25,807 nucleotides of DNA, from positions 1 to 25,807 of the IMG/VR virus record IMGVR_UViG_3300009156_000286; one strand, 5' to 3'. The notes under the pieces are model-generated. The model was given only the letters and a program-made list of their open reading frames with translations, did no database searches and had not been told where the DNA came from. How positions within the stretch are numbered: position 1 is the first letter of the stretch; each line of letters starts with the position of its first letter. This document shows positions 1,186-19,034 of the stretch, piece after piece. The DNA is from a virus. A program made the position numbers and the translations under genes.

Positions 1186-1399
1186 GTTTAGGTGTATGTC
1201 TGTGGTGCTGAATCTTGCAATAGACACAGTAGTCACATGTTGCTACGATCATGGCACCACAGACATGACACTTCCACGGAGTTAGACTGAAGAACCAATT
1301 GACCCACGCGCAATGTTTACTCTGGTCTCCACTTACATGCTCATAAGTGGGAGTATCAGTGTAAAAGAAGTCATTGTGCGTGGGTCTTGGTATTAGCAT
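1169..1399 (-). CDS. Small zinc-ribbon protein
   Basis: A 76-residue protein with CHVCGAM near residue 44 and CDYCVYC near residue 55, followed by a His-rich tail (QHHRHT). This is a plausible zinc knuckle. Its ATG overlaps the stop of the upstream DUF3987-like gene (TAATG), so it is probably translationally coupled and is the last gene of the minus-strand operon. Its 3' end overlaps the 3' end of the plus-strand virion gene by 17 bp. There is no assignable function. Small Cys-rich proteins recur along this operon. Confidence 0.6.
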   Translation of the reverse strand: MLIPRPTHNDFFYTDTPTYEHVSGDQSKHCAWVNWFFSLTPWKCHVCGAMIVATCDYCVYCKIQHHRHTPKPTDVV

Positions 1400-2682
1400 T
1401 ATCTTCCCTTCCCCGAGAAGAACTTCTTGTATTCCTTCACAACCAAATCAGGCATCTCGTAGACTATCTGATTCCCGATACTCTGCGTCTTGATCATTCC
1501 TGCCTGATCGAATGACAGCATAATCTCATCGAGTTCATTGGCTTCCTTGTAATGGAATGCCATTCGCTTGAGTAGCATCATTCGACTTATCTGATGTGAG
1601 TCTCTCTGATAGAGTTCCTGAATGATCAGGTTCTTGAGACTCTTGGCTTCAGATAGACCCTTCTTACCGTGGGTCATTTCCCTTACATTACCTACCAGCT
1701 TTTCACAATAGTCAATCGCTAGTTGCATTGAATCCTCGTCTATGTACAACTCTGGACTTCTTGCTAGGCTTAACAACATCGCCACCTTCAATACAGAATC
1801 CCCAAATCTGTTGAGTGTACCTGTATCATCCCGAAGTTCTTGAGTCAGGATATTCTCGGTAAACTCTTGATACCACTTCTGATACAGTAATCCCGCTGGA
1901 GAGAAGTAATTAACCTCTCCTGTCACATGTTCTACGAAGGGGATATTACATGCATCAGTTACTTCTGATGTAGCCAGTGGTTGGAATGGACCCTCCAACT
2001 TAGCTACCTCTTTCATATACTCGACTAACGCTGGATAGTTTGGGGGATTACGTAGAGGGACTAGTAGACTGTTGGCTCGGTTTCGTTTGTTTTCTGATAT
2101 GATGAATGTGCGTGCAAAGTACCCACCGTGGATGTCCTTCTTACCGAAGAAATCCGATGAGTGCGCTTCATTAGTTGCAGTCAACATACTGATAGTTGGG
2201 TCCTTCAAGTTGAATTGCTCCATCTTGAGTAGTGATCTCCACTCTCCAATATTGTACTGACGGTCATACAAATCTGTAAGGATGTCCGTCGCTACCTTGT
2301 CTTCTACGATTGATGAGGTAAGTTCAGACGAACAGATAAACGCACATGACTTACCATTACCTACTACCTTTCCCCCCGGTCCTGTCTGTGCTGTGCCTAG
2401 TTCCTTCAAGATTCCTTGGATTGATGAACGGCCAGATATTATTCGGGTTCCTCCAACCCCCTTCACTAATTGTTTCGCCATGCTGATAGGCGGACCCTTC
2501 TTCAGTCCACTCTCTGCATGAAACATCACATAGATGTTCGGATAGAGATTGTAGATCTGACGGTGCAGCCATACGTTATCCTTTACTACAGCTGACAATG
2601 CAGCAAGGCCGCCCCACAGCCAGAAGTTTGTGGGAGATTCTAATTCGCCGTGCTGACTTAGTAGAGTATCGAGCCATGTCAC
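1399..2682 (-). CDS. DUF3987-like replication ATPase
   Basis: A 427-residue protein starting at GTG 2682, with GAGG upstream and only 9 bp after the polymerase stop. The N-terminal layout (WLWGGLAALSAVV, then LYPNIYVMFHAESGLKKGPP) matches the DUF3987 family of phage and plasmid replication ATPases, often annotated as helicase or primase-helicase partner. Residues 57-64, where a P-loop is expected, read ESGLKKGP instead of GxxxxGK[ST]. A long central region contains FICSSELTS (possible Walker B area) and ISMLTATNE (sensor-like). The C-terminus resembles a winged-helix segment. The family role, DNA unwinding or helicase function at the fork, is inferred from similarity and from its position directly after the polymerase. 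The degenerate P-loop makes active ATP hydrolysis uncertain. Confidence 0.65.
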   Translation of the reverse strand: MTWLDTLLSQHGELESPTNFWLWGGLAALSAVVKDNVWLHRQIYNLYPNIYVMFHAESGLKKGPPISMAKQLVKGVGGTRIISGRSSIQGILKELGTAQTGPGGKVVGNGKSCAFICSSELTSSIVEDKVATDILTDLYDRQYNIGEWRSLLKMEQFNLKDPTISMLTATNEAHSSDFFGKKDIHGGYFARTFIISENKRNRANSLLVPLRNPPNYPALVEYMKEVAKLEGPFQPLATSEVTDACNIPFVEHVTGEVNYFSPAGLLYQKWYQEFTENILTQELRDDTGTLNRFGDSVLKVAMLLSLARSPELYIDEDSMQLAIDYCEKLVGNVREMTHGKKGLSEAKSLKNLIIQELYQRDSHQISRMMLLKRMAFHYKEANELDEIMLSFDQAGMIKTQSIGNQIVYEMPDLVVKEYKKFFSGKGR

Positions 2683-2691
2683 CTTGTTCCT

Positions 2692-5316
2692 CTAAAATGG
2701 AATGTCTTTGTCTACTACTCGCTTTGATTCTAGCTTAGCATAGTAATCTTCCCTAGCCTCCTCATCATTTACTGTGAATTGTTCCGTGATGGAAAGTGGT
2801 CGAATCCGAACAGGCTCAGGAAGAACCACCTCAACCGTTTTCTTAAACTTGTGTAAGTCACAGTAGTTCTCTCCTATCTCTACATCAGATGGAATCCTTA
2901 GTAACCTTCTTTTCAGGGAACAGGCAGCGAAACTGATGGGTCGTTCCATTTCCCTTTGGGCGATGGGGATGAAATCATCGAGGTATTCTCGTCTGATGGC
3001 GAACAAGAGAGCGTCATGCGCCTCAAGAATAATTCGCGCGTATGGTCGTTCTCGCTTAATCCGTATCCCAGCTGCTTTGGTATTGTCAGTGACTGCTCGC
3101 TGGGGCATGTAAGAAAATGCCTCTCGGAATAAGTCGTCTCCCCATCGTTCGTAGAATATTCGAACACCACCTCTATCAGCATCAATCCCCCAAGGTAATG
3201 GAGCTACTAGTTGACGAGTTTCTTTTAGAGCTTCAACTACTTCTGCATGGAACACGCGCTGAATCTTCGGTTGCTTGGCGTGGAATATCTTTAATGCTCT
3301 CTCGGCTTGTCCTTCGTCGATCGTAATCGGGATCTTATACTTTCGTGCTTGAGTGTTGAGTTCAGTACTCGCGCGTCGCTTTCCGGCTCCAAGATGTCCT
3401 GCATGACGGAGAGTCTTCCCAGCAAATCTAATTGGGCTTTCATATCCGAGCACTTTTTTAGAGTAATCAGATTCAGTACCACCGAAAAACCAAGTAGCAG
3501 TAAGAGCATGATAATCATGTTCGTCAATGTCCCTCAATGCTTGGTCATCTGTGGCTAAATTGAATACTACTCTAGCTTCTGCCTGTGAGCTGTCTATATT
3601 GACGAACACTTCCCCTTCACCGGGAATATACATACCTCTGACGTCCGAACCAATATCACCATGCTTGGTGAATACTTGGAACGCAGCGCCCATAGGTTTC
3701 ATGTCTGCTTTTTTGCCCTTACCTACTGTGTCAACTAGAGGGCGTGTGGGGGGATCTTGTAATCCTGTCGAGGTACGACCTGTTTCCAAACACATGAATG
3801 TAGTAGTCTTCATGCGCCCGTCGAAATCAGGTATTGCCATCAGATAGGTTGAGATAGTCTTCTTGACTTTGCGTCTCTCTAGACACTTCTCAATCCATGA
3901 ACGCATTCCAGGGTCCTTCACTCCATGCTTGAGATTAAGCAGGGCTGTGAGTTCTTCCTCACCCGTACCTTGACGACGAGGTAACTTCCAAACATCGAAA
4001 AGCAGAGAGTATACCTGTGTCGGGGAGTTGGGATTAATGTCCTCACCTGCCAACTGATACATCTCAAAACCAAGTCGTTCATCCCATTCCACGTACTTTG
4101 CAATGAGTTCAGCTCGCTTAACTTCGTCGACATAGAATCCATTAGTTTCTATCTCCGCATAGAAGTCAGGCAAGGTCATGATGAAGTTGCGATAGAACTT
4201 ATCTACCCCCAACTCCACCAAATCTGGTTCCATTGCTTCATCTATTTCAAGAGTAACACAAGCATCTCTGGCGCAGCCGATAAGAAGATCGCGGTACGAC
4301 CCCTCATACATACCGTCGTCTTTGTAGAATGGTTCCCTTGTATAGATAGATGTAAGGAATGCGAGTCCTTTCGGCAGTTCAGGATTGATGGCGAATGCTT
4401 TGAGCATAGTATCCGAGTGTATCCGTCGTATGGTGAATCCAAGACGCCGAATTTTGTCGCGATCATAATTGAAGTTTTGTCCGACAATATCTTTCTCCCA
4501 TAGAACCTTAGATACCATGAGCCACATAGTAGCTAGGTCAGCAGTTGGAATGGTTGATATTCCGTCACTATTCCACAGAGGAACAGTCATTCCATGTGAT
4601 TTAGTGAACGCGAGTCCGATACATATGGGTAAGCAATGACCACCTGCTTCGATATCGACTGACAGTTTAGGGTGATTCTTGTATCTTTCGAGGAAGGAGT
4701 ACAATTCTCCTGAGTTTTGGGCGACCTGAAGGACTCTGTTTGGAAGGTCCAATAAAGGACTGGCTGATTCTTCATATGATCTCTTTGCATCAAAGATCAT
4801 TACCTGACGATTCCAATAGCCCTTGATTTCGCCACCGCCAGAGTGATGTAGCAGATGCGCGGGATGATAGGTAGGTACAAACTTGTGGCCCATCCCCCGC
4901 ATGATAGAGCCGCGGAATTTACTGATTGGATTTCGCCCACTGAGCGCCCATAATGCAGTCCCACCGAGAGCAAGAATACAGTTTGGTCTGACATCATTAA
5001 TCTCCGTCTGTAGTTCGGCTAGTTGTTGGTCCATATCAATGCCATGATTCTTGGCTCTAATATGGAATGGTACTTTCTTCCCCTTCTTTCCTGATAGGTC
5101 TGGGGGAACCTCATATTTACACACATTAGTGACCCAAGCTCCACTCCTAGATAAGCCCGCATCCTTCAATATTCGGTCCAGTTCTCTACCTGACGGACCA
5201 ACAAACGGTCTACCTGCTGCCGTCTCCTCATATGATGGGGCTTCACCAAGTATCATCCACTTGGCTCCAACTGGACCCATTCCTGGTACATACTTCTTTT
5301 CTCTATCTGCCATCAC
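2692..5316 (-). CDS. Uracil-DNA glycosylase / family A DNA polymerase fusion
   Basis: An 874-residue replicative polymerase of the SPO1-like type. Residues 1-185 are a uracil-DNA glycosylase-like domain with GEAP at 24-27, PFVGPSG near 37-43, TNVCKYEVPP at 63-72 and the YHPAHLL motif at 150-156. The Fe-S cysteines of family 4 enzymes are not evident. A 3'-5' exonuclease follows: D221/E223 (Exo I), N281-D285 (Exo II) and D351 (Exo III; the usual Tyr four residues earlier is Gly347). The polymerase has motif A (D575), motif B (R630 and K634, then H638 and L642 where Phe/Tyr and Tyr are usual) and motif C (HDA at 767-769, not HDE). The extreme C-terminus is DKDIPF, like the bacterial SSB tip. 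The start is GTG 5316 or the adjacent ATG 5313, overlapping the previous gene by 14 or 11 bp. It acts at the phage replication fork. Confidence 0.93.
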   Translation of the reverse strand: MMADREKKYVPGMGPVGAKWMILGEAPSYEETAAGRPFVGPSGRELDRILKDAGLSRSGAWVTNVCKYEVPPDLSGKKGKKVPFHIRAKNHGIDMDQQLAELQTEINDVRPNCILALGGTALWALSGRNPISKFRGSIMRGMGHKFVPTYHPAHLLHHSGGGEIKGYWNRQVMIFDAKRSYEESASPLLDLPNRVLQVAQNSGELYSFLERYKNHPKLSVDIEAGGHCLPICIGLAFTKSHGMTVPLWNSDGISTIPTADLATMWLMVSKVLWEKDIVGQNFNYDRDKIRRLGFTIRRIHSDTMLKAFAINPELPKGLAFLTSIYTREPFYKDDGMYEGSYRDLLIGCARDACVTLEIDEAMEPDLVELGVDKFYRNFIMTLPDFYAEIETNGFYVDEVKRAELIAKYVEWDERLGFEMYQLAGEDINPNSPTQVYSLLFDVWKLPRRQGTGEEELTALLNLKHGVKDPGMRSWIEKCLERRKVKKTISTYLMAIPDFDGRMKTTTFMCLETGRTSTGLQDPPTRPLVDTVGKGKKADMKPMGAAFQVFTKHGDIGSDVRGMYIPGEGEVFVNIDSSQAEARVVFNLATDDQALRDIDEHDYHALTATWFFGGTESDYSKKVLGYESPIRFAGKTLRHAGHLGAGKRRASTELNTQARKYKIPITIDEGQAERALKIFHAKQPKIQRVFHAEVVEALKETRQLVAPLPWGIDADRGGVRIFYERWGDDLFREAFSYMPQRAVTDNTKAAGIRIKRERPYARIILEAHDALLFAIRREYLDDFIPIAQREMERPISFAACSLKRRLLRIPSDVEIGENYCDLHKFKKTVEVVLPEPVRIRPLSITEQFTVNDEEAREDYYAKLESKRVVDKDIPF

Positions 5317-6710: not shown

Positions 6711-7106
6711 CTATTCAGCCGAACGCAGGGGACGGTACTTGTGAGGAACACGATTCACCATGCGTCCCTGCCATTCACCGTTCTCCACGAACACTTCAAC
6801 CTGCTTACCAGCCGCATTCGCAAGGTCAAAGCGAGCACCAGCCTTGACATCCACACCGAATGCCTGAAGGAAACCCACCGCAAAGCCAATAGCCTTGCTG
6901 TTGAAGTTCCAGTCGAGCGGAACATTAGCGAAGTCCGTGGAACCGTTGTCCGCGTTGGCAACGATAGTACCTTCCACTGGATAGTTGGTGCTACCACCAT
7001 CCTTGGAAGGTGCCTCGCCCACCGCATTGATCTGAACCACATACCACGCCGGCTCCACGACCTTACCGCGGAGAAGATCACGCTCGCCGAATTGAATGAT
7101 AGGCAT
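6711..7106 (-). CDS. DUF669-like candidate single-stranded-DNA-binding protein
   Basis: A 131-residue protein reading MPIIQFGERDLLRGKVVEP, then a conserved-looking core EAPSKDGGSTNYPVEGTI, then WNFNSKAIGFAVGFLQAFGV. This pattern is familiar from DUF669-like phage proteins encoded next to a RecA-like ATPase, generally taken to be ssDNA-binding or recombination partners. Function is inferred from family and from the immediate upstream neighbour, the Sak4-like ATPase, 11 bp away. There is no acidic C-terminal tail, unlike typical SSB. It likely coats ssDNA during phage replication or recombination. Confidence 0.6.
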   Translation of the reverse strand: MPIIQFGERDLLRGKVVEPAWYVVQINAVGEAPSKDGGSTNYPVEGTIVANADNGSTDFANVPLDWNFNSKAIGFAVGFLQAFGVDVKAGARFDLANAAGKQVEVFVENGEWQGRMVNRVPHKYRPLRSAE

Positions 7107-7117
7107 TGTTCTGTCCT

Positions 7118-7948
7118 CTACTGCTTGAACGAACTACTGGTTGTTGGTGTTGTTGTTTTTGGAGTTGTGAACTTGTCGATAGCTGGTCTAATCCAGGTAG
7201 CATAGAGAGGCTTGTTACCCACTACAATCTCCCTATCCAATCCTAAACCAGTACGCGCAAAGTCATCTCCAGTATGCTCTGTCAGTATGCTATAGTCACC
7301 CCCTTGACCTTCGACAAATCCCTGCTTGATGTTGAAGTGGTATACTTCATTCATGTAAGCCGGGAACTTTGCGGCGGTATTCTTAGAAGCCGTCACAATC
7401 TGACGACTGATATGTGTAGTCTTCTTAGTGGTGTCACGGTATTCTGCCTTCACCACATGCGCAATCATGATCACATTGATCTTGTGATAGTCTACAAGAT
7501 CCTTCGCACCGGCTAACAATTCATTCAATGCGGAGGACTCAGCGTTATAGTCCTCAATCTCATTGACTGCAATGCCAGCGATTAGCTTACCTGCTGCGGC
7601 ACCTGACTGACGTGAGACTCCATACTTCAACTTCATGGTCTGACGTAGTGTCATGTCTGCCATGCTGGTAATACTGTCAAAGACTACAGTCTTATATGGA
7701 CAGTTCACTCTCAACTGTTCCAGCTTTGCGCGTGGCTTGGCCCAATCTTCATAGTCATCAAACGTGATGGACTTAGGATCAATATCCCACTTCCTCATGG
7801 GCAGGATGATTCCATTCATCTTCCTATCCCACGAGAACCAGTATTGAGGGCCAGGAAATGATAAGGCTTGAGTTGACTTACGTGTTCCGGGTTCCCCCTT
7901 GAACATATAAGTCATTGCCTCGAAGTTAATGTCACTCATGTTGGGCAT
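7118..7948 (-). CDS. RecA-like P-loop ATPase (Sak4/AAA_24 type)
   Basis: A 276-residue protein with a Walker A-like GEPGTRKST at 18-26, in which the usual Gly before Lys is Arg. Walker B-like TVVFDSIT is at 87-94 and a sensor-like INVIMIAHV segment follows. This is the arrangement of phage AAA_24/Sak4 recombination ATPases, which work with an ssDNA-binding protein in annealing or strand exchange. The C-terminus is a Thr/Ser-rich flexible tail. The start ATG at 7948 overlaps the previous gene's stop by one base. The DUF669-like gene follows directly, supporting a recombination pair. Confidence 0.8.
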   Translation of the reverse strand: MPNMSDINFEAMTYMFKGEPGTRKSTQALSFPGPQYWFSWDRKMNGIILPMRKWDIDPKSITFDDYEDWAKPRAKLEQLRVNCPYKTVVFDSITSMADMTLRQTMKLKYGVSRQSGAAAGKLIAGIAVNEIEDYNAESSALNELLAGAKDLVDYHKINVIMIAHVVKAEYRDTTKKTTHISRQIVTASKNTAAKFPAYMNEVYHFNIKQGFVEGQGGDYSILTEHTGDDFARTGLGLDREIVVGNKPLYATWIRPAIDKFTTPKTTTPTTSSSFKQ

Positions 7949-8151
7949 TACTGGACTTCCTTATTGAACGGAAGCATGAGTTGAGTTGGCTCATTATCTC
8001 CCGACAATGTGTAGCCGATTGTCTCGAACTCCTCGACAACTGGCATCACAAAGATGTTAGTGAATGCATCATCATGCCCATCATCTAGTACGATGTCCAG
8101 TTCCATGTCACAGTGCGCATGTAGATAGGTAATCAGCTCCTTGACTTTCAT
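7948..8151 (-). CDS. Small conserved phage-type protein
   Basis: A 67-residue protein beginning MKVKELITYLHAHCDMELDIVL and followed by an acidic DDGHDD turn. This is a common layout of small phage proteins of unknown function. It overlaps the nuclease gene upstream by 4 bp (ATGA-type) and the ATPase gene downstream by 1 bp, so it is part of a translationally coupled trio. No catalytic motif is visible. Confidence 0.65.
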   Translation of the reverse strand: MKVKELITYLHAHCDMELDIVLDDGHDDAFTNIFVMPVVEEFETIGYTLSGDNEPTQLMLPFNKEVQ

Positions 8152-9155
8152 TCCTCCTCCTTATTCTGTGGGTCCCACACAGGAGCAGTGATGTAATTGA
8201 GTCGGAGTACATCCTCCCTCATGTTACGATCCGATTCGCACACCTGCTTGTATGCGCATGGACCATACATATTGTCGCAGTGCGTGTAATTCGGAGGCCA
8301 GTAACCCGACTCCTGATACTGGATGTACTTGTATGCATAGTATGGAATAGTCTCTCCTTGCCATTCCATTAGCATGTCTGCACTATAACTGATTACTTCC
8401 CTAGTCAACCTCTCGCCTATCTTGAGAGATGACTGGAGTCCAATCTTGTTCACAATCACGTTTCTGGATTTGAGCAGAATACAATGACCCATGAACTGGT
8501 TTGATAGAGTAGACTTAGCTCTCCTTTGCTTGAATGTCTTGTGGTCCATTGACACGATACCGATTTGATTCGTGTCAACCACTAGATCGAACTTCGCTTT
8601 CCACAAGACACGGACTTCATCATCTTCATAGATGACTTCACCCTTCACATGTTCACATGAGAGTGGGATGAATGAATCGTTCTCGTAGAACTTGAAGTAC
8701 TGTTCACATGTGTCGAGTGCGAACCGCCAGCCTACAGTGAATCCCTCACTGTTCTCTGGTGTGTTCTCCAGTCCAGGATACTCGTCTACTTCGTGCTTAC
8801 ATGTCGGGACTAGTACACACATGTCATTGCAGACATGCTCTACCTCATTGTCCGGCTCCATGAACTGATGAGTAGGAACAAATCCCTTACAATGAGGGCA
8901 ACCAGAAATAAAAAGTTGCCCAGCCGTGAGCGCGTGTCCGATGCTGGTATTTCGAGGAAATCCATTGATCATACTCCGGTAATAGACTTCCAGAACCTTG
9001 TGAATCAGTGAGCCAATCTCCAGTGAATTGGACTTACCTCGACTAGACACAAGTTGGTGATTGAATCGAATATCATGGTATCGCGCACATGACATGAGAG
9101 AACTCAACATCGTGGCATCCATGATAATGTTCTTCTTTGGTACAAGGACTTCCAT
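8148..9155 (-). CDS. Cas4/RecB-like PD-(D/E)xK nuclease with cysteine cluster
   Basis: A 335-residue protein. The nuclease core is visible as GSLIHKVLE (His52), KAKFDLVVD (Asp190), MDHKTFK (Asp204-x-Lys206) and QFMGH (Gln220). Cys23 near the N-terminus and Cys293, Cys300 and Cys306 near the C-terminus match the four Fe-S ligands of Cas4/AddB-type exonucleases. An insertion around residues 86-119 carries five more cysteines (CPHC, then C109, C113 and C119), possibly a second metal site. The family makes 3' ssDNA overhangs for recombination, fitting the ATPase and DUF669-like genes just downstream. The start ATG follows the TAA of a 28-residue frame and has GGGAG upstream. It is not in a CRISPR context. 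Confidence 0.82.
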   Translation of the reverse strand: MEVLVPKKNIIMDATMLSSLMSCARYHDIRFNHQLVSSRGKSNSLEIGSLIHKVLEVYYRSMINGFPRNTSIGHALTAGQLFISGCPHCKGFVPTHQFMEPDNEVEHVCNDMCVLVPTCKHEVDEYPGLENTPENSEGFTVGWRFALDTCEQYFKFYENDSFIPLSCEHVKGEVIYEDDEVRVLWKAKFDLVVDTNQIGIVSMDHKTFKQRRAKSTLSNQFMGHCILLKSRNVIVNKIGLQSSLKIGERLTREVISYSADMLMEWQGETIPYYAYKYIQYQESGYWPPNYTHCDNMYGPCAYKQVCESDRNMREDVLRLNYITAPVWDPQNKEEE

Positions 9156-9861: not shown

Positions 9862-10133
9862 TACTTCTTCTCCATTGGAGTCATCAGTCCGCGTCCAATC
9901 AACGCTTCCTCAAGTAACATCTTCACTACTTCATCTTGAGTCTTTTTCTCCTCACCCATGATGTAACGGACGAGAATCCAAATGACTTCATCTCTAGTTA
10001 CAGGCATTTTAACTTCCTCAGTTCGTTGCCATTGTGGGTGATTGTCACAACTAGGATGATGTCCTTCTGCGCGTGTACGCTGACAATCATCACAACATCC
10101 GCGACTATCAAAACCATCAGTTGATTTACTCAT
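9861..10133 (-). CDS. Small Cys-rich N-terminus plus helical domain, hypothetical
   Basis: A 90-residue protein. The first 35 residues carry CCDDC and a further Cys with His residues (a possible zinc site). From residue 43 the frame continues MPVTRDEVIWILVRYIMGEE into a helical segment. The Met at residue 43 (ATG 10007) has its own strong GAGGAAG upstream, so a shorter 48-residue form may also, or instead, be made. ATG 10133 has GGAGACAACTA upstream. It may be a fusion of two small genes. Function unknown. Confidence 0.55.
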   Translation of the reverse strand: MSKSTDGFDSRGCCDDCQRTRAEGHHPSCDNHPQWQRTEEVKMPVTRDEVIWILVRYIMGEEKKTQDEVVKMLLEEALIGRGLMTPMEKK

Positions 10134-11401: not shown

Positions 11402-13534
11402 TTATGCGGCTACACCTTCATCACCACCACCACCGCGATTCTTCTTTGCCTTATGCGCGCGAACGATAGATGCAGCCAACTCTTTCATGATTGCATCCTC
11501 ACTCCACTTCTCCGCTTCAGTACCAGTCCAATTGTGGAACTGTGCGCGCTTCCTCTCGACGATTGCATCGAGATTCTGATCAATGGCAGTCAATCCTTCC
11601 ATGTGCGTGTAGATTGCATTGACTGATTCAGCAGTCTGTCCGATGCGGACGAATCTACCTTCACACTGTTCTTCCTTGCCCGGATTCCACTGACGCTCAT
11701 GCATCACACAATCTGAACACGTCTGAAGATTCAGTCCCTCTCCACTTGCCAGTTGACTAGCCACTAGAATGGCTCGTGGCAGAGTGTTGAACTGTTCCTG
11801 AACTTCATGCCGCTGAAGTCCATTCATCTCCGCATCCAACTTCAAGACAGGAATTCTATCCTCTCCCTTGTCATACTTCTCTTTGAATGACTCATACAGG
11901 AGATACTGAACATCCTTGTGGTGTGCGAATACCACTAGTTTCCTGTCAGTGTCCTCAACGAACTCGTCTACATATTCCTCTGTAGCTGGAATCTTGGCGA
12001 GTGCGCATAGGTGACGCAACTTAGACATCATGGCGATGATAGCCATGCCGGTCATTGCATCCTGCTGTTCCTCAAACCATTTCACGAACTCCTCTACTGC
12101 CTCGTCATATATGGCTTCCTGAGTGGAATCCATTACAACATTCAGTTTAGTTCGATTAGTGAGTGGCAATTCAGCCATCACTTCTTTTCTTTCACGTCTA
12201 ATGATGATTCCCTGAGTGTACTCCTTGAACTGAGTGATATGCTTGATTCCACCTTCCTTCACGATGGCACCTTGGAAGTATGTGGCAACCCACTGACGCT
12301 TGAATGCGTCTGCTGACCAAAACTTCGATGGTGCAATCATGTTCAGGATTGGGAACAATTCACTACCTCGATTGTTCCATGGAGTTCCACTCAATCCAAT
12401 GACTTTCCTTCCCTTGCACACCTTCCTGACCATCTGTGTCCGTGATGAATCAGCATTCTTGATTTGCTGACATTCATCTAACACGACACACTTGATTCCG
12501 ACTCGATTGAATTGTTCAATATCGAATCCTGAGGTAACGACTTTACCTGACTTCAAAGTGCGTGACTTCTGAACTAGCATGTCATACCCGATGATGTAGT
12601 GCTTCAATCCGGGTATCAGCCAATCCTTCGAGGTATTCACAATCTGTGGAATGTGCATATCCTCTGGCTTAGTACCAACTGGATTCATCCAATTGATTTG
12701 AGTGGATGCGAACTGATACTTCAATCCACTCTTTACAATCCAGAGAGTTGGTGTGCAGAGTTCAGGATGGAAGTACACGACACCCATCGCTTGAATGGTC
12801 TTACCTAGCCCCATTTCATCAGCGATTAAGATGCCGTTGCCTGCTGCGAGTGCAGATTCAGCGAGCCTCATGCCCTCGACTTGAAAGTCATAAGGGCGCT
12901 TCCGCTGACATGCTACGCAGTTGTTCTTGTCCCATACGTGGTCACAATCATGTGAACCATTCAGATGGAACCGATGGAATGGAGTTCCCTTCGGAATCTT
13001 GCGTATGGTCATGTGACCACACTCAAGTGTGATGAATTTCAGGTTTGGCTTTGTGTCGCCCTTTACAATCTGAATCTTCTCTGACTTGACTTTGGCGACC
13101 TTACCACACACAGCACACTTATCTTGAATACGTGTAACTGTGTATCGTGGTGTCCTGATTACCTGCTCGTCGAATGTCACTTCAACATCTGCTCCACTCC
13201 GAATGGCGTCGATGATTTCTGGTGACAGAGACAGATTCGAGCATGGCATGGTATTAGTGCAGCCCACTTCTCTGGCTTTACTAGACCACACTTCATCATG
13301 CGCATGGCCGGGTCCGACAAGCGCGTGTGCCAACTCGTGTTTGATTGTATTGACTACATCCGGGTCTGGATGTATGTCAATATGGTGTGCGGAGAGAATG
13401 ATGCACTTGTCCTTGTAACTACACAGTCCAAGGAAGTGTGAATCGGCATTCTGATTCAGCCTGACTCCCCAGTCAGTTAAACCATATGCATTCAATTCAT
13501 CACGCATCATACGTGCGGCTTGGTGTCTATCCAT
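11402..13534 (-). CDS. SprT-type metallopeptidase / SNF2 helicase fusion
   Basis: A 710-residue protein. Residues 1-100 are SprT-like, with the zincin signature HELAH at 66-70 and further His at 77 and 79. Residues 140-210 hold Cys/His pairs (C140/C143, C172/H174, C206/C209), likely zinc ribbons as in SprT or SPRTN tails. From about 215 it is an SNF2 ATPase: DEMGLGKT (239-246, motif I), LDECQ (352-356, motif II), LSGTPWNNR (381-389, motif III) and, in the second lobe, ASGEGLNLQT and QCEGRFVRIGQ (623-633, motif VI). Known relatives do DNA translocation, fork remodelling or annealing (SNF2) and DNA-protein crosslink proteolysis (SprT/SPRTN). Combined here, they suggest removal of proteins from phage DNA. 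The start has AGAGGA 5 bases upstream. The C-terminus is Gly/Lys-rich. All catalytic residues I can place are present. Confidence 0.9.
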   Translation of the reverse strand: MDRHQAARMMRDELNAYGLTDWGVRLNQNADSHFLGLCSYKDKCIILSAHHIDIHPDPDVVNTIKHELAHALVGPGHAHDEVWSSKAREVGCTNTMPCSNLSLSPEIIDAIRSGADVEVTFDEQVIRTPRYTVTRIQDKCAVCGKVAKVKSEKIQIVKGDTKPNLKFITLECGHMTIRKIPKGTPFHRFHLNGSHDCDHVWDKNNCVACQRKRPYDFQVEGMRLAESALAAGNGILIADEMGLGKTIQAMGVVYFHPELCTPTLWIVKSGLKYQFASTQINWMNPVGTKPEDMHIPQIVNTSKDWLIPGLKHYIIGYDMLVQKSRTLKSGKVVTSGFDIEQFNRVGIKCVVLDECQQIKNADSSRTQMVRKVCKGRKVIGLSGTPWNNRGSELFPILNMIAPSKFWSADAFKRQWVATYFQGAIVKEGGIKHITQFKEYTQGIIIRRERKEVMAELPLTNRTKLNVVMDSTQEAIYDEAVEEFVKWFEEQQDAMTGMAIIAMMSKLRHLCALAKIPATEEYVDEFVEDTDRKLVVFAHHKDVQYLLYESFKEKYDKGEDRIPVLKLDAEMNGLQRHEVQEQFNTLPRAILVASQLASGEGLNLQTCSDCVMHERQWNPGKEEQCEGRFVRIGQTAESVNAIYTHMEGLTAIDQNLDAIVERKRAQFHNWTGTEAEKWSEDAIMKELAASIVRAHKAKKNRGGGGDEGVAA

Positions 13535-13564: not shown

Positions 13565-14269
13565 TTATTTGCTTGATGGAACTACATTAGAGGAACCGAC
13601 AAGTTGAACAACTTGTTTCGCAGCTTCCTCATATGACATGCCTGACTTGCTGTACCAGAGTGACTGGACTGCCACCTCAGGAACTCCATACTTCTTGGCA
13701 GCTTCACGAAGTGCAGCCTTATCGAATTTCTTGCTTCCTGCTTTCGGTCCCGCTGGTGATGTAGTACGTGCTTTCTTAGCCTGTACTGGCGTCGCAGGCT
13801 TATAATTCACATCCAAACTTCTAAATTTAGCCCGTTCCGCCTCACCGAGTGTGTGAACCAGCTCTGTAGCTTGTGTACGCCACGCATGACGCTGATTCTT
13901 CATTTCCATCAGTTCTTGTTCTTTGGCGAATATCGCCGCATCGAACTGAGTGATACGTTCGGCAGCCAATTCCGCCATCTTGAACTGCTTCTTGTCTGCT
14001 GGAATTGAATCATCATTCGTCACAGCAGCCCGAAGTGTAATGAAGTCAACAGTAGATGCATTGAATACATCCTGACTGACTTTAATACCTTGGTCTTGTG
14101 TACGTGACTGCTGGATTACATGATTGACGCGCGCATTGCTCTTGCGTTCTTCAGCCATTGCAGCCAATTCATTATCACGACACTTCTCGCAGAGCATGTC
14201 ATTATTTACCTTGAATAGTTCTACCCCTGACTTCGGGCAGGCATCGCAGTCACCAATAGGATTCGCCAT
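13565..14269 (-). CDS. Zinc-ribbon and coiled-coil protein of unknown function
   Basis: A 234-residue protein. An N-terminal zinc ribbon (CDACPKSG at 8-15, CEKC at 27-30) is followed by a long charged helical region (about 35-150, likely coiled coil). A basic Pro/Ala/Ser linker with KARTTSPAGPKAGSKK follows, and then a C-terminal helical domain (ALREAAKKYGVPEVAVQSLW) that resembles a small helix-turn-helix. GGGAG lies upstream of the ATG at 14269, one base after the preceding stop. It directly precedes the SprT-SNF2 gene in transcription order and may be its partner, by inference only. Confidence 0.65.
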   Translation of the reverse strand: MANPIGDCDACPKSGVELFKVNNDMLCEKCRDNELAAMAEERKSNARVNHVIQQSRTQDQGIKVSQDVFNASTVDFITLRAAVTNDDSIPADKKQFKMAELAAERITQFDAAIFAKEQELMEMKNQRHAWRTQATELVHTLGEAERAKFRSLDVNYKPATPVQAKKARTTSPAGPKAGSKKFDKAALREAAKKYGVPEVAVQSLWYSKSGMSYEEAAKQVVQLVGSSNVVPSSK

Positions 14270-17334: not shown

Positions 17335-17347
17335 TGTAATATCTACA
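17335..17347. promoter_or_regulatory. 13-bp dyad, candidate operator
   Basis: TGTAATATCTACA matches TGTAA-N3-YTACA with one asymmetric base. The identical 13-mer recurs at 17432. Confidence 0.45.
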
Positions 17348-17417
17348 TACAGAAACTCATATTGGGCGAAGCCCAATCAAGTGTGAGAGTGGGGGAGTGG
17401 GTAGAATGTGCATGATA

Positions 17418-17444
17418 TGTAAGAATTACAGTGTAATATCTACA
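17418..17444. promoter_or_regulatory. Pair of adjacent 13-bp dyads
   Basis: TGTAAGAATTACA (17418-17430, perfect dyad) and TGTAATATCTACA (17432-17444) are separated by one base, a 14-bp repeat step. This is suggestive of cooperative regulator binding. Confidence 0.55.
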
Positions 17445-17646
17445 TACAGAAAACGCACTCGGGCGCCAGCCCGACCACTCACTTGGATAGTATCGTCATG
17501 AGGTACAGCACAAGCGTGCTCGATATGCGCTGACTATACTACTAGGGTAGTAGACTATTGATAAAAAAATCTCGAGCCATATATTTTTTTTTTATTTATT
17601 AGTTGCCGTCATGTAGTAGGGGTATGGGGTATACCCATGCAGCATA

Positions 17647-17659
17647 TGTAAATATTACA
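17647..17659. promoter_or_regulatory. 13-bp dyad, candidate operator
   Basis: TGTAAATATTACA is a perfect TGTAA-N3-TTACA dyad, about 200 bp upstream of the virion-operon promoter. Confidence 0.5.
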
Positions 17660-17860
17660 CAAAATGCACGGTCGACATGGAAATAATGTCTCTCAGGCAC
17701 AAATTAAGTAAGGGAAATATAAAAAATAGAGGAGGTAAAATTCTGTAGGAAAAAATAAAAAAAATAAACCCTCAATTCATAATGTAATTCATGAAAAGTG
17801 GACGAGACTCCCCCATCCCGACTCCGGGCTAAGTCACTTCATTTCAACGACTTAGAGGGC

Positions 17861-17889
17861 TTGACAATCCGACGGATTCGTGAGACAAT
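17861..17889 (+). promoter_or_regulatory. Sigma70-like promoter of the virion operon
   Basis: TTGACA (17861-17866) is a perfect -35. A 17-bp spacer leads to GACAAT (17884-17889, four of six matches to TATAAT). The first gene of the plus-strand operon starts 70 bp downstream. Confidence 0.65.
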
Positions 17890-17895
17890 TCCTCT

Positions 17896-17919
17896 GGCGG
17901 ACCTCCCGCCCATCTTTTT
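17896..17919 (+). other. Leader hairpin with T-run at the predicted mRNA 5' end
   Basis: GGCGG (17896-17900) and CCGCC (17906-17910) pair with a 5-base loop, followed by CATC and TTTTT. It begins where transcription from the adjacent promoter should start. It could stabilise the 5' end, or be a weak terminator for upstream transcription. Confidence 0.45.
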
Positions 17920-17959
17920 CCTTACAATCTAAATTTTATTCTACTCATAGGAGTAGTGT

Positions 17960-18553
17960 ATGCCTATAGGTCTAGTTAATGATTCAGATTTTGAACAGGA
18001 ATTACTTCGCATTGGTTCTGTGAAGCCAAGTACTCCTGTATCTACTCCAATTAATCTAGAAGTAATCGAGGGAGTAGTAGAAACGGTTCCATCTAGAGGA
18101 CGGAATAAAGGGGATAATAATGTCCCCTCCTCTCTACGCGCGCTCATCGCTGAAGAACACCTAATGAATGGCAGATCAGCTGCACTAGAGATGGCTTCCG
18201 AACTAGGTATTTCTCCTAGTAGTGTGTCGGCTTACGCTAATGGAGCTAGTTCCACTGCATCATACGACACACCGAAGGAATCCATTGTAAGTGTAGTCAA
18301 TAAAGCGCGTGTGCGAGCCACTAAGAAGGCAGCTAAGACAATGAATGCTGCCCTAGCGGCTATTACACAACAGAAGCTAGACTACACTGATGCTGACAAG
18401 TTGTCTGGTATCGCTAAAGACATGTCAGTCATCATCAAGAATCTTGAGCCTAAACAGGCTGAAGGTCCATCAGGTCAAACACCCCAGTTCACCATTTACG
18501 CTCCTCAATTCCGTGATGAGCGTTCCTTTGAAATCATTCAGGTTCAGGAATAA
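17960..18553 (+). CDS. Putative small terminase subunit (helix-turn-helix protein)
   Basis: A 197-residue protein from ATG 17960 with AGGAG 6 bases upstream. Residues 71-95 (GRSAALEMASELGISPSSVS onward) form a helix-turn-helix, followed by a long Ala/Lys-rich helical region (VNKARVRATKKAAKTMNAAL) and a C-terminal tail with a beta-like segment. This order, DNA-binding HTH then oligomerising helices, is that of phage small terminases, which recognise the packaging site and regulate the large subunit. It is the first gene of the operon that contains the large terminase, three genes downstream. An alternative is a transcriptional regulator. Confidence 0.6.
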   Translation: MPIGLVNDSDFEQELLRIGSVKPSTPVSTPINLEVIEGVVETVPSRGRNKGDNNVPSSLRALIAEEHLMNGRSAALEMASELGISPSSVSAYANGASSTASYDTPKESIVSVVNKARVRATKKAAKTMNAALAAITQQKLDYTDADKLSGIAKDMSVIIKNLEPKQAEGPSGQTPQFTIYAPQFRDERSFEIIQVQE

Positions 18554-18584: not shown

Positions 18585-19034
18585 ATGCCTACAATCACAT
18601 CAGTTCGATTGGATCCATTCCGTCCTGTCCTCAAGGCTGGTACTCCTAGTCTGAGAGTTACAGCAGAACAGGATCTTTACATTCGTGAGATTCTTGACAT
18701 CTGCTGTTCAGATTCAGCGTCTGCAAAGAAGGCATATGCTGCAATTGAATATGTATTGACCAACAATACTCCAGGTCCAGTTCCTGCTTTGACTAGTCTC
18801 ACTCCAGCCACTACAGTAGTGGCAGTTCCCGTTCCAGTTGTTGTAGCTGGTACGGGATTTTTTGTGGACTCTGTAGTTCAGGTCAATGGAGTGGCAGTTC
18901 CTACCACATTCGTATCTGATACTGAATTGGGATTCAGTCCTGATGTGTCAGTTGCTGGTACTCTTGCAGTCACTGTCTTGAATACTGACTTGCAAGTATC
19001 GAATTCAGTCAATTTCGACGTAACTGCTGTCTAG
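18585..19034 (+). CDS. IPT/TIG Ig-like virion protein
   Basis: A 149-residue protein. The N-terminal 65 residues (MPTITSVRLDPFRPVLKAGT and a helical ICCSDSASAKKAYAA segment) are unrecognised. Residues 66-149 fit one IPT/TIG-type Ig domain: PALTSLTPATTV, GTGFFVDSVVQVNGVAVPTT, then ALAVTVLNTD-like strands. Such domains decorate phage heads and tails and bind surface polysaccharide weakly. AGGAG precedes the ATG, and hairpins lie in the gaps on both sides. A capsid or tail decoration role is inferred from the fold and the neighbouring sugar-binding gene. Confidence 0.65.
   Translation: MPTITSVRLDPFRPVLKAGTPSLRVTAEQDLYIREILDICCSDSASAKKAYAAIEYVLTNNTPGPVPALTSLTPATTVVAVPVPVVVAGTGFFVDSVVQVNGVAVPTTFVSDTELGFSPDVSVAGTLAVTVLNTDLQVSNSVNFDVTAV

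Follow-up and report, generated by a model that had tools for sequence, protein, structure and literature searches.

A SprT-like protease domain joined to an SNF2 motor in a single protein of uncultivated tailed phages

A 710-residue phage protein combines a SprT/SPRTN-like zincin domain, two zinc ribbons and an SNF2 ATPase motor in one polypeptide. That this one-chain architecture is genuine is practically certain, and both enzymatic domains exceed their Pfam cut-offs. Human SPRTN is an enzyme which clears proteins stuck on DNA, and SPRTN-like proteases and DNA motors usually reside on separate proteins. The gene is located in a stretch of 25,807 nucleotides (IMG/VR virus record IMGVR_UViG_3300009156_000286), which was analysed as a whole and is referred to as the window. 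The protein appears to represent a new domain architecture made of known families, and it carries a SPRTN-type SprT zincin with an intact predicted active site. An earlier note on this DNA, made from the sequence alone, had described a SprT metallopeptidase fused to an SNF2 helicase and considered the combination unusual; the domain identities, the coordinates and the unusual nature of the fusion are all upheld by the present analysis.

Domain architecture of the fusion protein

The gene lies on the minus strand, with a ribosome-binding site of the GAGAGGA type ahead of its ATG (Table 1). The earlier note had placed a chain of 710 residues at 11402–13534, with HELAH at residues 66–70 and the main SNF2 motifs, among them DEMGLGKT with K245 and a motif VI, and this is correct. 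DEMGLGKT is at residues 239–246, DECQ at 353–356, SGTPW at 382–386 and QCEGRFVRIGQ at 623–633. An AlphaFold2 model of the whole chain, computed from 41 aligned sequences (the window protein together with IMG/VR relatives), has a pLDDT of 81 and a pTM of 0.71. It displays an alpha/beta zincin at residues 1–98, a segment of low pLDDT at 99–134, strands of the ribbon region at approximately 149–180, and then the SNF2 motor.

Table 1. Coordinates in the window of the fusion gene, its parts and the neighbouring module genes
Feature	Position	Strand	Evidence
SprT-ribbon-SNF2 fusion protein, 710 aa	11402..13534	-	ATG at 13534, stop ends at 11402
SprT/SPRTN-like zincin domain, residues 1–98	13241..13534	-	Pfam, PHROG, model, SPRTN fold and profile matches
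Linker, residues 99–134, with near-invariant DAIRSG (109–114)	13133..13240	-	pLDDT mostly <50
Two Cys/His modules, residues 135–212	12899..13132	-	Conserved in 62/62 and 61/62 fusions
SNF2 ATPase motor, residues 213–700 (DEMGLGKT, DECQ, SGTPW, QCEGRFVRIGQ)	11435..12898	-	Pfam, profile, model, alignments
234-aa protein, N-terminal CxxC pairs, directly before the fusion gene	13565..14269	-	Syntenic throughout the clade
PD-(D/E)XK (exonuclease-like) nuclease	8148..9155	-	Pfam PDDEXK_1 3.9e-5, PHROG 1218 exonuclease; module-conserved
Sak4-like annealing ATPase	7118..7948	-	PHROG 124 3.6e-18; module-conserved
131-aa conserved module protein	6711..7106	-	No family match (Pfam, PHROG); position and conservation
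Uracil-DNA glycosylase-DNA polymerase A fusion	2692..5316	-	Pfam UDG 9.9e-23, DNA_pol_A 1.2e-20
DUF3987/primase-helicase-like protein	1399..2682	-	Pfam DUF3987 1.1e-7; PHROG 14296 DNA primase 4e-14

The N-terminal domain matches the SprT-like family of Pfam (PF10263) at residues 32–94 (E 3e-8, 33.9 bits against a cut-off of 25.6), and two relatives, L138 and L139, are above this cut-off as well. The profile phrog_1006 (155 positions) matches residues 1–94 (E 5e-22), and the matched SprT profiles of PHROG are all of single-domain length (155–223). H66, H70 and H79 are the predicted zinc ligands, the last one assigned as third ligand by alignment, and E67 is the predicted catalytic residue; all four are also invariant across standalone phage and bacterial SprT proteins.

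Modelled alone, the SprT domain reaches a pLDDT of 86.5. The top fold match of modelled residues 1–129 is human SPRTN (6mdw/6mdx; Z 10.8, rmsd 2.3–2.4 Å over 98–99 residues), followed by archaeal minigluzincins (Z 9.4) and Wss1 (Z 7.4). Foldseek E-values are weak for this small domain (5e-3 for SPRTN, probability 1.00), yet the sequence profile of the SprT part independently ranks SPRTN first among solved structures (E 1.9e-5). This search required the SprT part alone, as a profile of residues 1–260 returned mostly SNF2 chains and no SprT protease. The earlier note had made its reading depend on a match of the N-terminal residues to SprT or another zincin, and such a match was found. A chance occurrence of HExxH is ruled out by the Pfam hit, the fold match and conservation in 62 of 62 fusions.

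Typical SprT proteins carry a zinc ribbon right behind the protease core. This C-terminal ribbon is absent in the fusions, where the core is followed by the DAIRSG linker and then by a ribbon of the SNF2 family. PF10263 does not require the C-terminal ribbon, hence the membership of the fusion in the SprT family stands; as the ribbon is missing, SPRTN-like gating by DNA cannot be assumed. The pLDDT below 50 in the linker is consistent with a tether. DAIRSG (window positions 13193–13210, minus strand) falls into this region of low model confidence, yet it is almost invariant in the fusions. It is found neither in standalone SprT proteins nor in the deepest member of the clade, L139, and is possibly a docking or cleavage site.

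The ligands of ribbon 1 are C140, C143, C172 and H174, those of ribbon 2 are C197, H199, C206 and C209; the one exception for ribbon 2 is likely L139, whose sequence is without it. The earlier note had listed zinc-ribbon cysteines and set the domain boundary at residue 215. The cysteines are present, but they are not a unit of the SprT domain: SprT-less relatives begin at ribbon 1 and continue into the motor, so this ribbon belongs to the SNF2 partner, and the boundary is to be placed nearer residue 100–135. Within ribbon 1 of L049, L050 and L138 there is an extra Cys-rich insert (e.g. NVKCPTCKMFAYR), which suggests an added zinc module.

For the motor, Pfam reports SNF2-rel_dom at residues 229–511 (E 1.7e-30) and Helicase_C at 522–632 (E 6.9e-12), and the DNA helicase profile phrog_62 matches residues 212–692. 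Walker A, DExx box, motif III and motif VI are all present in a two-lobed motor, which identifies it as SNF2 (SF2); DNA-stimulated ATPase activity and translocation would be its predicted function. Many SNF2 remodellers are structural matches of the whole-chain model, and a profile comparison puts Sulfolobus SNF2/Rad54 (1z63) closest among solved motors. In a whole-chain search against viral structure models, SNF2 motors took up the hit list, so this search is uninformative on other SprT fusions. Besides SNF2, Helicase_C and SprT-like, the Pfam scan yielded only a sub-threshold AAA_34 match, and neither a HARP nor an HNH domain. With these domains absent by Pfam and a Rad54-like nearest motor, the resemblance to the fork-remodelling enzymes SMARCAL1 and ZRANB3 drawn in the earlier note is reduced to a functional analogy: the SNF2 motor fold is held in common, and action at forks may be a further parallel. 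An identity as a defence helicase (ZorD, DrmD, DpdE) was also rejected; the similarity is that of the shared SNF2 motor, and the NCBIfam matches are far below curated cut-offs.

Conservation and distribution

Two scans of IMG/VR identified 62 loci where a single ORF encodes both SprT and SNF2, the copy in the window included, 49 of which are distinct as judged by the last 300 residues. Those other than the window protein are 36–73% identical to it. L205, which is related to the deepest member L139, came from an additional scan. Thirteen residues never vary among the 62 fusions: H66, E67, H70, H79, W83, C140, C143, C172, H174, K245, D353, E354 and T384. Mean pairwise identity across the fusions is 66% for SprT and 60% for SNF2. 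The dN/dS ratio is 0.04–0.07 for SprT vs. 0.06–0.15 for SNF2 in the four pairs with changes and unsaturated synonymous sites, values which are indicative only because few pairs have usable dS. Judged from these comparisons of sequences, the fusion is old and under purifying selection.

Places covering 80% of the fusion were found neither in 50,697 phage records nor in 72,556 plasmids. SprT alone matches 989 phage records and SNF2 alone 343, with mostly different hosts. At 79 loci of standalone phage SprT (ORFs of 148–287 aa), no SNF2 gene is located within 8 kb; in one case elsewhere (L141) SprT and SNF2 are 5 kb apart. Among the bacterial matches listed (at least 58 loci) there is no fusion, and the ORFs are SprT-only or SNF2-only. 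With the fusion missing from the phage and plasmid sets and the domains separate elsewhere, it looks restricted to a single clade of tailed, uncultivated phages, whose longer records are in many cases approximately 43–49 kb in length. We found no description of a SprT-SNF2 fusion in the open-access papers searched, subscription papers being mostly outside the search. The possibility raised in the earlier note that the fusion might prove common and already characterised is thus not borne out for the catalogued phages and the literature searched.

Origin of the fusion and loss of the protease

Fused proteins and their close relatives fall into a single group of the SNF2 tree, L139 being its deepest member (SH-aLRT 89). 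The SprT domains of the fusions, including that of L139, group together in the SprT tree (92/87, from a short alignment). SprT is missing from the nearest SNF2 outgroups (L163, L170, L176, L178 and L194), in which the chain opens with the ribbon and then runs into the motor; additional L176 relatives have no SprT either. The simplest reading would be that the fusion happened once, in one phage clade, where a SprT domain was probably added ahead of a ribbon-SNF2 protein, minus the Cys ribbon of standalone SprT.

Clean losses of the protease are seen in L052/L058 and L053. In L056/L066 it has decayed, with LTNEI at the place of HELAH. These three cases occupy separate places in the tree among fused relatives, which suggests that the protease was lost or destroyed in at least three sublineages, with ribbons and motor retained. 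Hence, the protease is an accessory to the motor rather than an obligatory partner. No standalone SprT was found in the records of SprT-less members, an absence which is not proof, as virus records may be incomplete. A split into separate SprT and SNF2 genes was rejected on this ground and because none adjoins SNF2 at the 79 further loci. Several seemingly unfused tree rows (L039, L045–L048, L059 and L140) are truncations at contig ends and not true losses, and L026 and L028, labelled as standalone in the SprT tree, are both full-length fusions. In L058, a 119-aa ORF (MSDFTNGLRSLAEFYDARPDF...) occupies the site of the missing SprT domain (entry L058/L052, just before position 10013); it has no family match in Pfam or PHROG.

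Genomic neighbourhood

The fusion gene is part of a module with the order 234-aa protein, fusion, small ORFs, PD-(D/E)XK nuclease, Sak4-like ATPase, 131-aa protein, cold-shock-domain protein, UDG-PolA and DUF3987 protein. Homologues of the 234-aa protein are present at 28 of 33 compared loci, including the SprT-less L053, L058 and L066; it was not found in the SNF2 outgroups and shows no clear family by Pfam or PHROG. From its position and conservation, the 131-aa protein is probably an ssDNA-binding protein. The genes of the replication module are common to fused and SprT-less members of the clade. Of these, the nuclease, Sak4 and 131-aa genes also occur in the SNF2 outgroups further away, some of which have PolA as well. 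The motor therefore is to be seen as a component of replication-recombination, with the protease as its accessory. A virome survey ties SNF2 proteins to PolA modules, their viral function being termed unknown (PMC9069017), and authors of a jumbo-phage study proposed that SNF2 could stand in for UvsW in recombination (PMC7824862).

The earlier note had spoken of an early operon. This would be reasonable for a replication module that runs opposite to the structural genes, but promoter-like matches in the window are no commoner than in shuffled sequence. Some further observations concern other parts of the window. The UDG domain of UDG-PolA is N-terminal, and a His occupies the position aligned by eye with F762 of E. 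coli Pol I (RFAGKTLRHAGHLGAG); this His is kept in the compared polymerases of the clade. The PolA types discussed for this position in the virome study are Phe, Leu and Tyr (PMC9069017). Approximately 600 bases (17340–17960) just before the structural operon are without a listed gene and contain several terminator-like hairpins. Upstream of the terminase gene there are an IPT/TIG-domain protein (18585–19034, plus strand), common to ten relatives, and a 563-aa protein with a weak DUF7910 match (19059–20750, plus strand).

Relation to known systems

The fusion shares with human SPRTN and Wss1 the SprT zincin fold, HExxH with a third His by alignment, and a tie to DNA transactions. SPRTN has no motor in its chain and partners with separate helicases such as FANCJ, whereas the phage protein has SNF2 in cis. 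Standalone phage SprT proteins (PHROG 1006, 3768, 6445 and 10840; gp83 of mycobacteriophage Eaglepride) possess the same zincin core, with approximately 30–50% identity to the SprT domain of the window, and a standalone mycobacteriophage SprT has been matched structurally to SPRTN (PMC12363180). They differ in being single-domain ORFs with their own C-terminal ribbon and without a nearby SNF2 gene (see above). SNF2 helicases of PHROG 62 and the five outgroups named above have the same motor and N-terminal ribbon, in a similar neighbourhood, but without SprT.

A precedent for a zincin and a SWI2/SNF2 domain in one phage or plasmid polypeptide is given by the polyvalent proteins, which are large, multi-domain, delivered on invasion, and often combined with a methylase or ArdC-N (PMC5512222). 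Their zincins form 12 clades with no specific kinship to other defined zincin clades and use Glu as third ligand (PMC5512222). In contrast, the fusion has 710 aa, a SprT-type zincin with an invariant His, and a gene in a replication module; it displays neither the large size nor the Glu ligand of that class.

Possible function and alternative explanations

We propose that the protein is a replication/recombination translocase with a tethered protease that digests proteins which block phage DNA, and possibly crosslinks. For this mechanism as a whole we see an even chance. Somewhat more doubtful is the view that it constitutes an ATP-driven, self-contained DNA-tracking protease clearing both covalent and non-covalent obstacles from replicating phage DNA. 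At intermediates of replication or recombination, the motor would move along the double-stranded DNA of the phage and present the tethered protease to proteins halting motor or fork, i.e. tight roadblocks or covalent DNA-protein crosslinks. The obstacle would be strained or unfolded by the motor and digested by the SprT domain, after which PolA/Sak4-dependent synthesis could go on. In eukaryotes, FANCJ is required for the unfolding of protein adducts, a step that likely precedes degradation by SPRTN (PMC10175854). Translocation, the coupling of motor and protease, and the substrate are thus postulated, on a basis of observed architecture, intact predicted active site and module membership; DNA-dependent proteolysis of DNA-bound or crosslinked protein is the predicted activity. 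In lineages which lost the protease, the motor would work alone, and so the protease would be a conditional accessory. As at least three lineages have neither the protease nor, in their records, a standalone SprT, clearing of roadblocks by this route seems not to be essential.

The main rival to a protease acting on roadblocks is an attack on host proteins, in which SprT would cut DNA-associated proteins of the host (nucleoid, RNA polymerase, restriction or defence) while SNF2 only delivers it or acts independently. Expression of LHTSCC gp83, a standalone SprT-like mycobacteriophage protein, is bactericidal and causes filamentation (PMC7474061), and the jumbo-phage authors, pointing to the patchy distribution of phage SprT, favour host proteins as its targets (PMC7824862). 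Loss of SprT is patchy in the fusion clade, too, yet repeated loss indicates a conditionally useful protease and fits either of these views. However, the gene sits in a conserved replication core, and the slow evolution of the protease equals that of the motor, which is not what a typical arms-race effector would show; we consider this explanation possible, though clearly less probable than the proposed mechanism.

Two further explanations place the role of SprT in the chain itself or its partners. The domain could be a regulatory protease which processes its own chain or a partner (the SSB-like protein, PolA or the 234-aa protein) to switch the replication state. SPRTN is reported to inactivate itself by autocatalysis (PMC7826251), processing of their own polypeptide has been predicted for the zincin domains of polyvalent phage proteins (PMC5512222), and the near-invariant DAIRSG segment in the linker would agree with such a role. 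However, phages without SprT still have the 234-aa protein, Sak4, exonuclease and PolA, which therefore need no processing by SprT, and this explanation is unlikely. Most improbable is that SprT has no catalytic role and is a remnant which binds DNA or protein on an ordinary phage SNF2 helicase. Its loss or wreckage in L052/L058, L053 and L056/L066 and the lack of the ribbon of standalone SprT would be in line with a passenger domain, but all 62 fusions, down to 36% identity and at low dN/dS, keep every predicted zinc ligand and catalytic residue, and the one domain form that did decay has visibly lost HELAH.

Conclusions

The handover of DNA-bound proteins from motor to protease has been studied in eukaryotes with separate proteins, e.g. 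FANCJ and SPRTN. A natural fusion, together with protease-less and active-site-decayed relatives as controls, makes the cooperation of motor and protease in cis directly testable. The fusion would also serve biochemistry as a compact DNA-directed protease. For the biology of these phages, it allows a direct test of whether their replication is held back by protein roadblocks or crosslinks.
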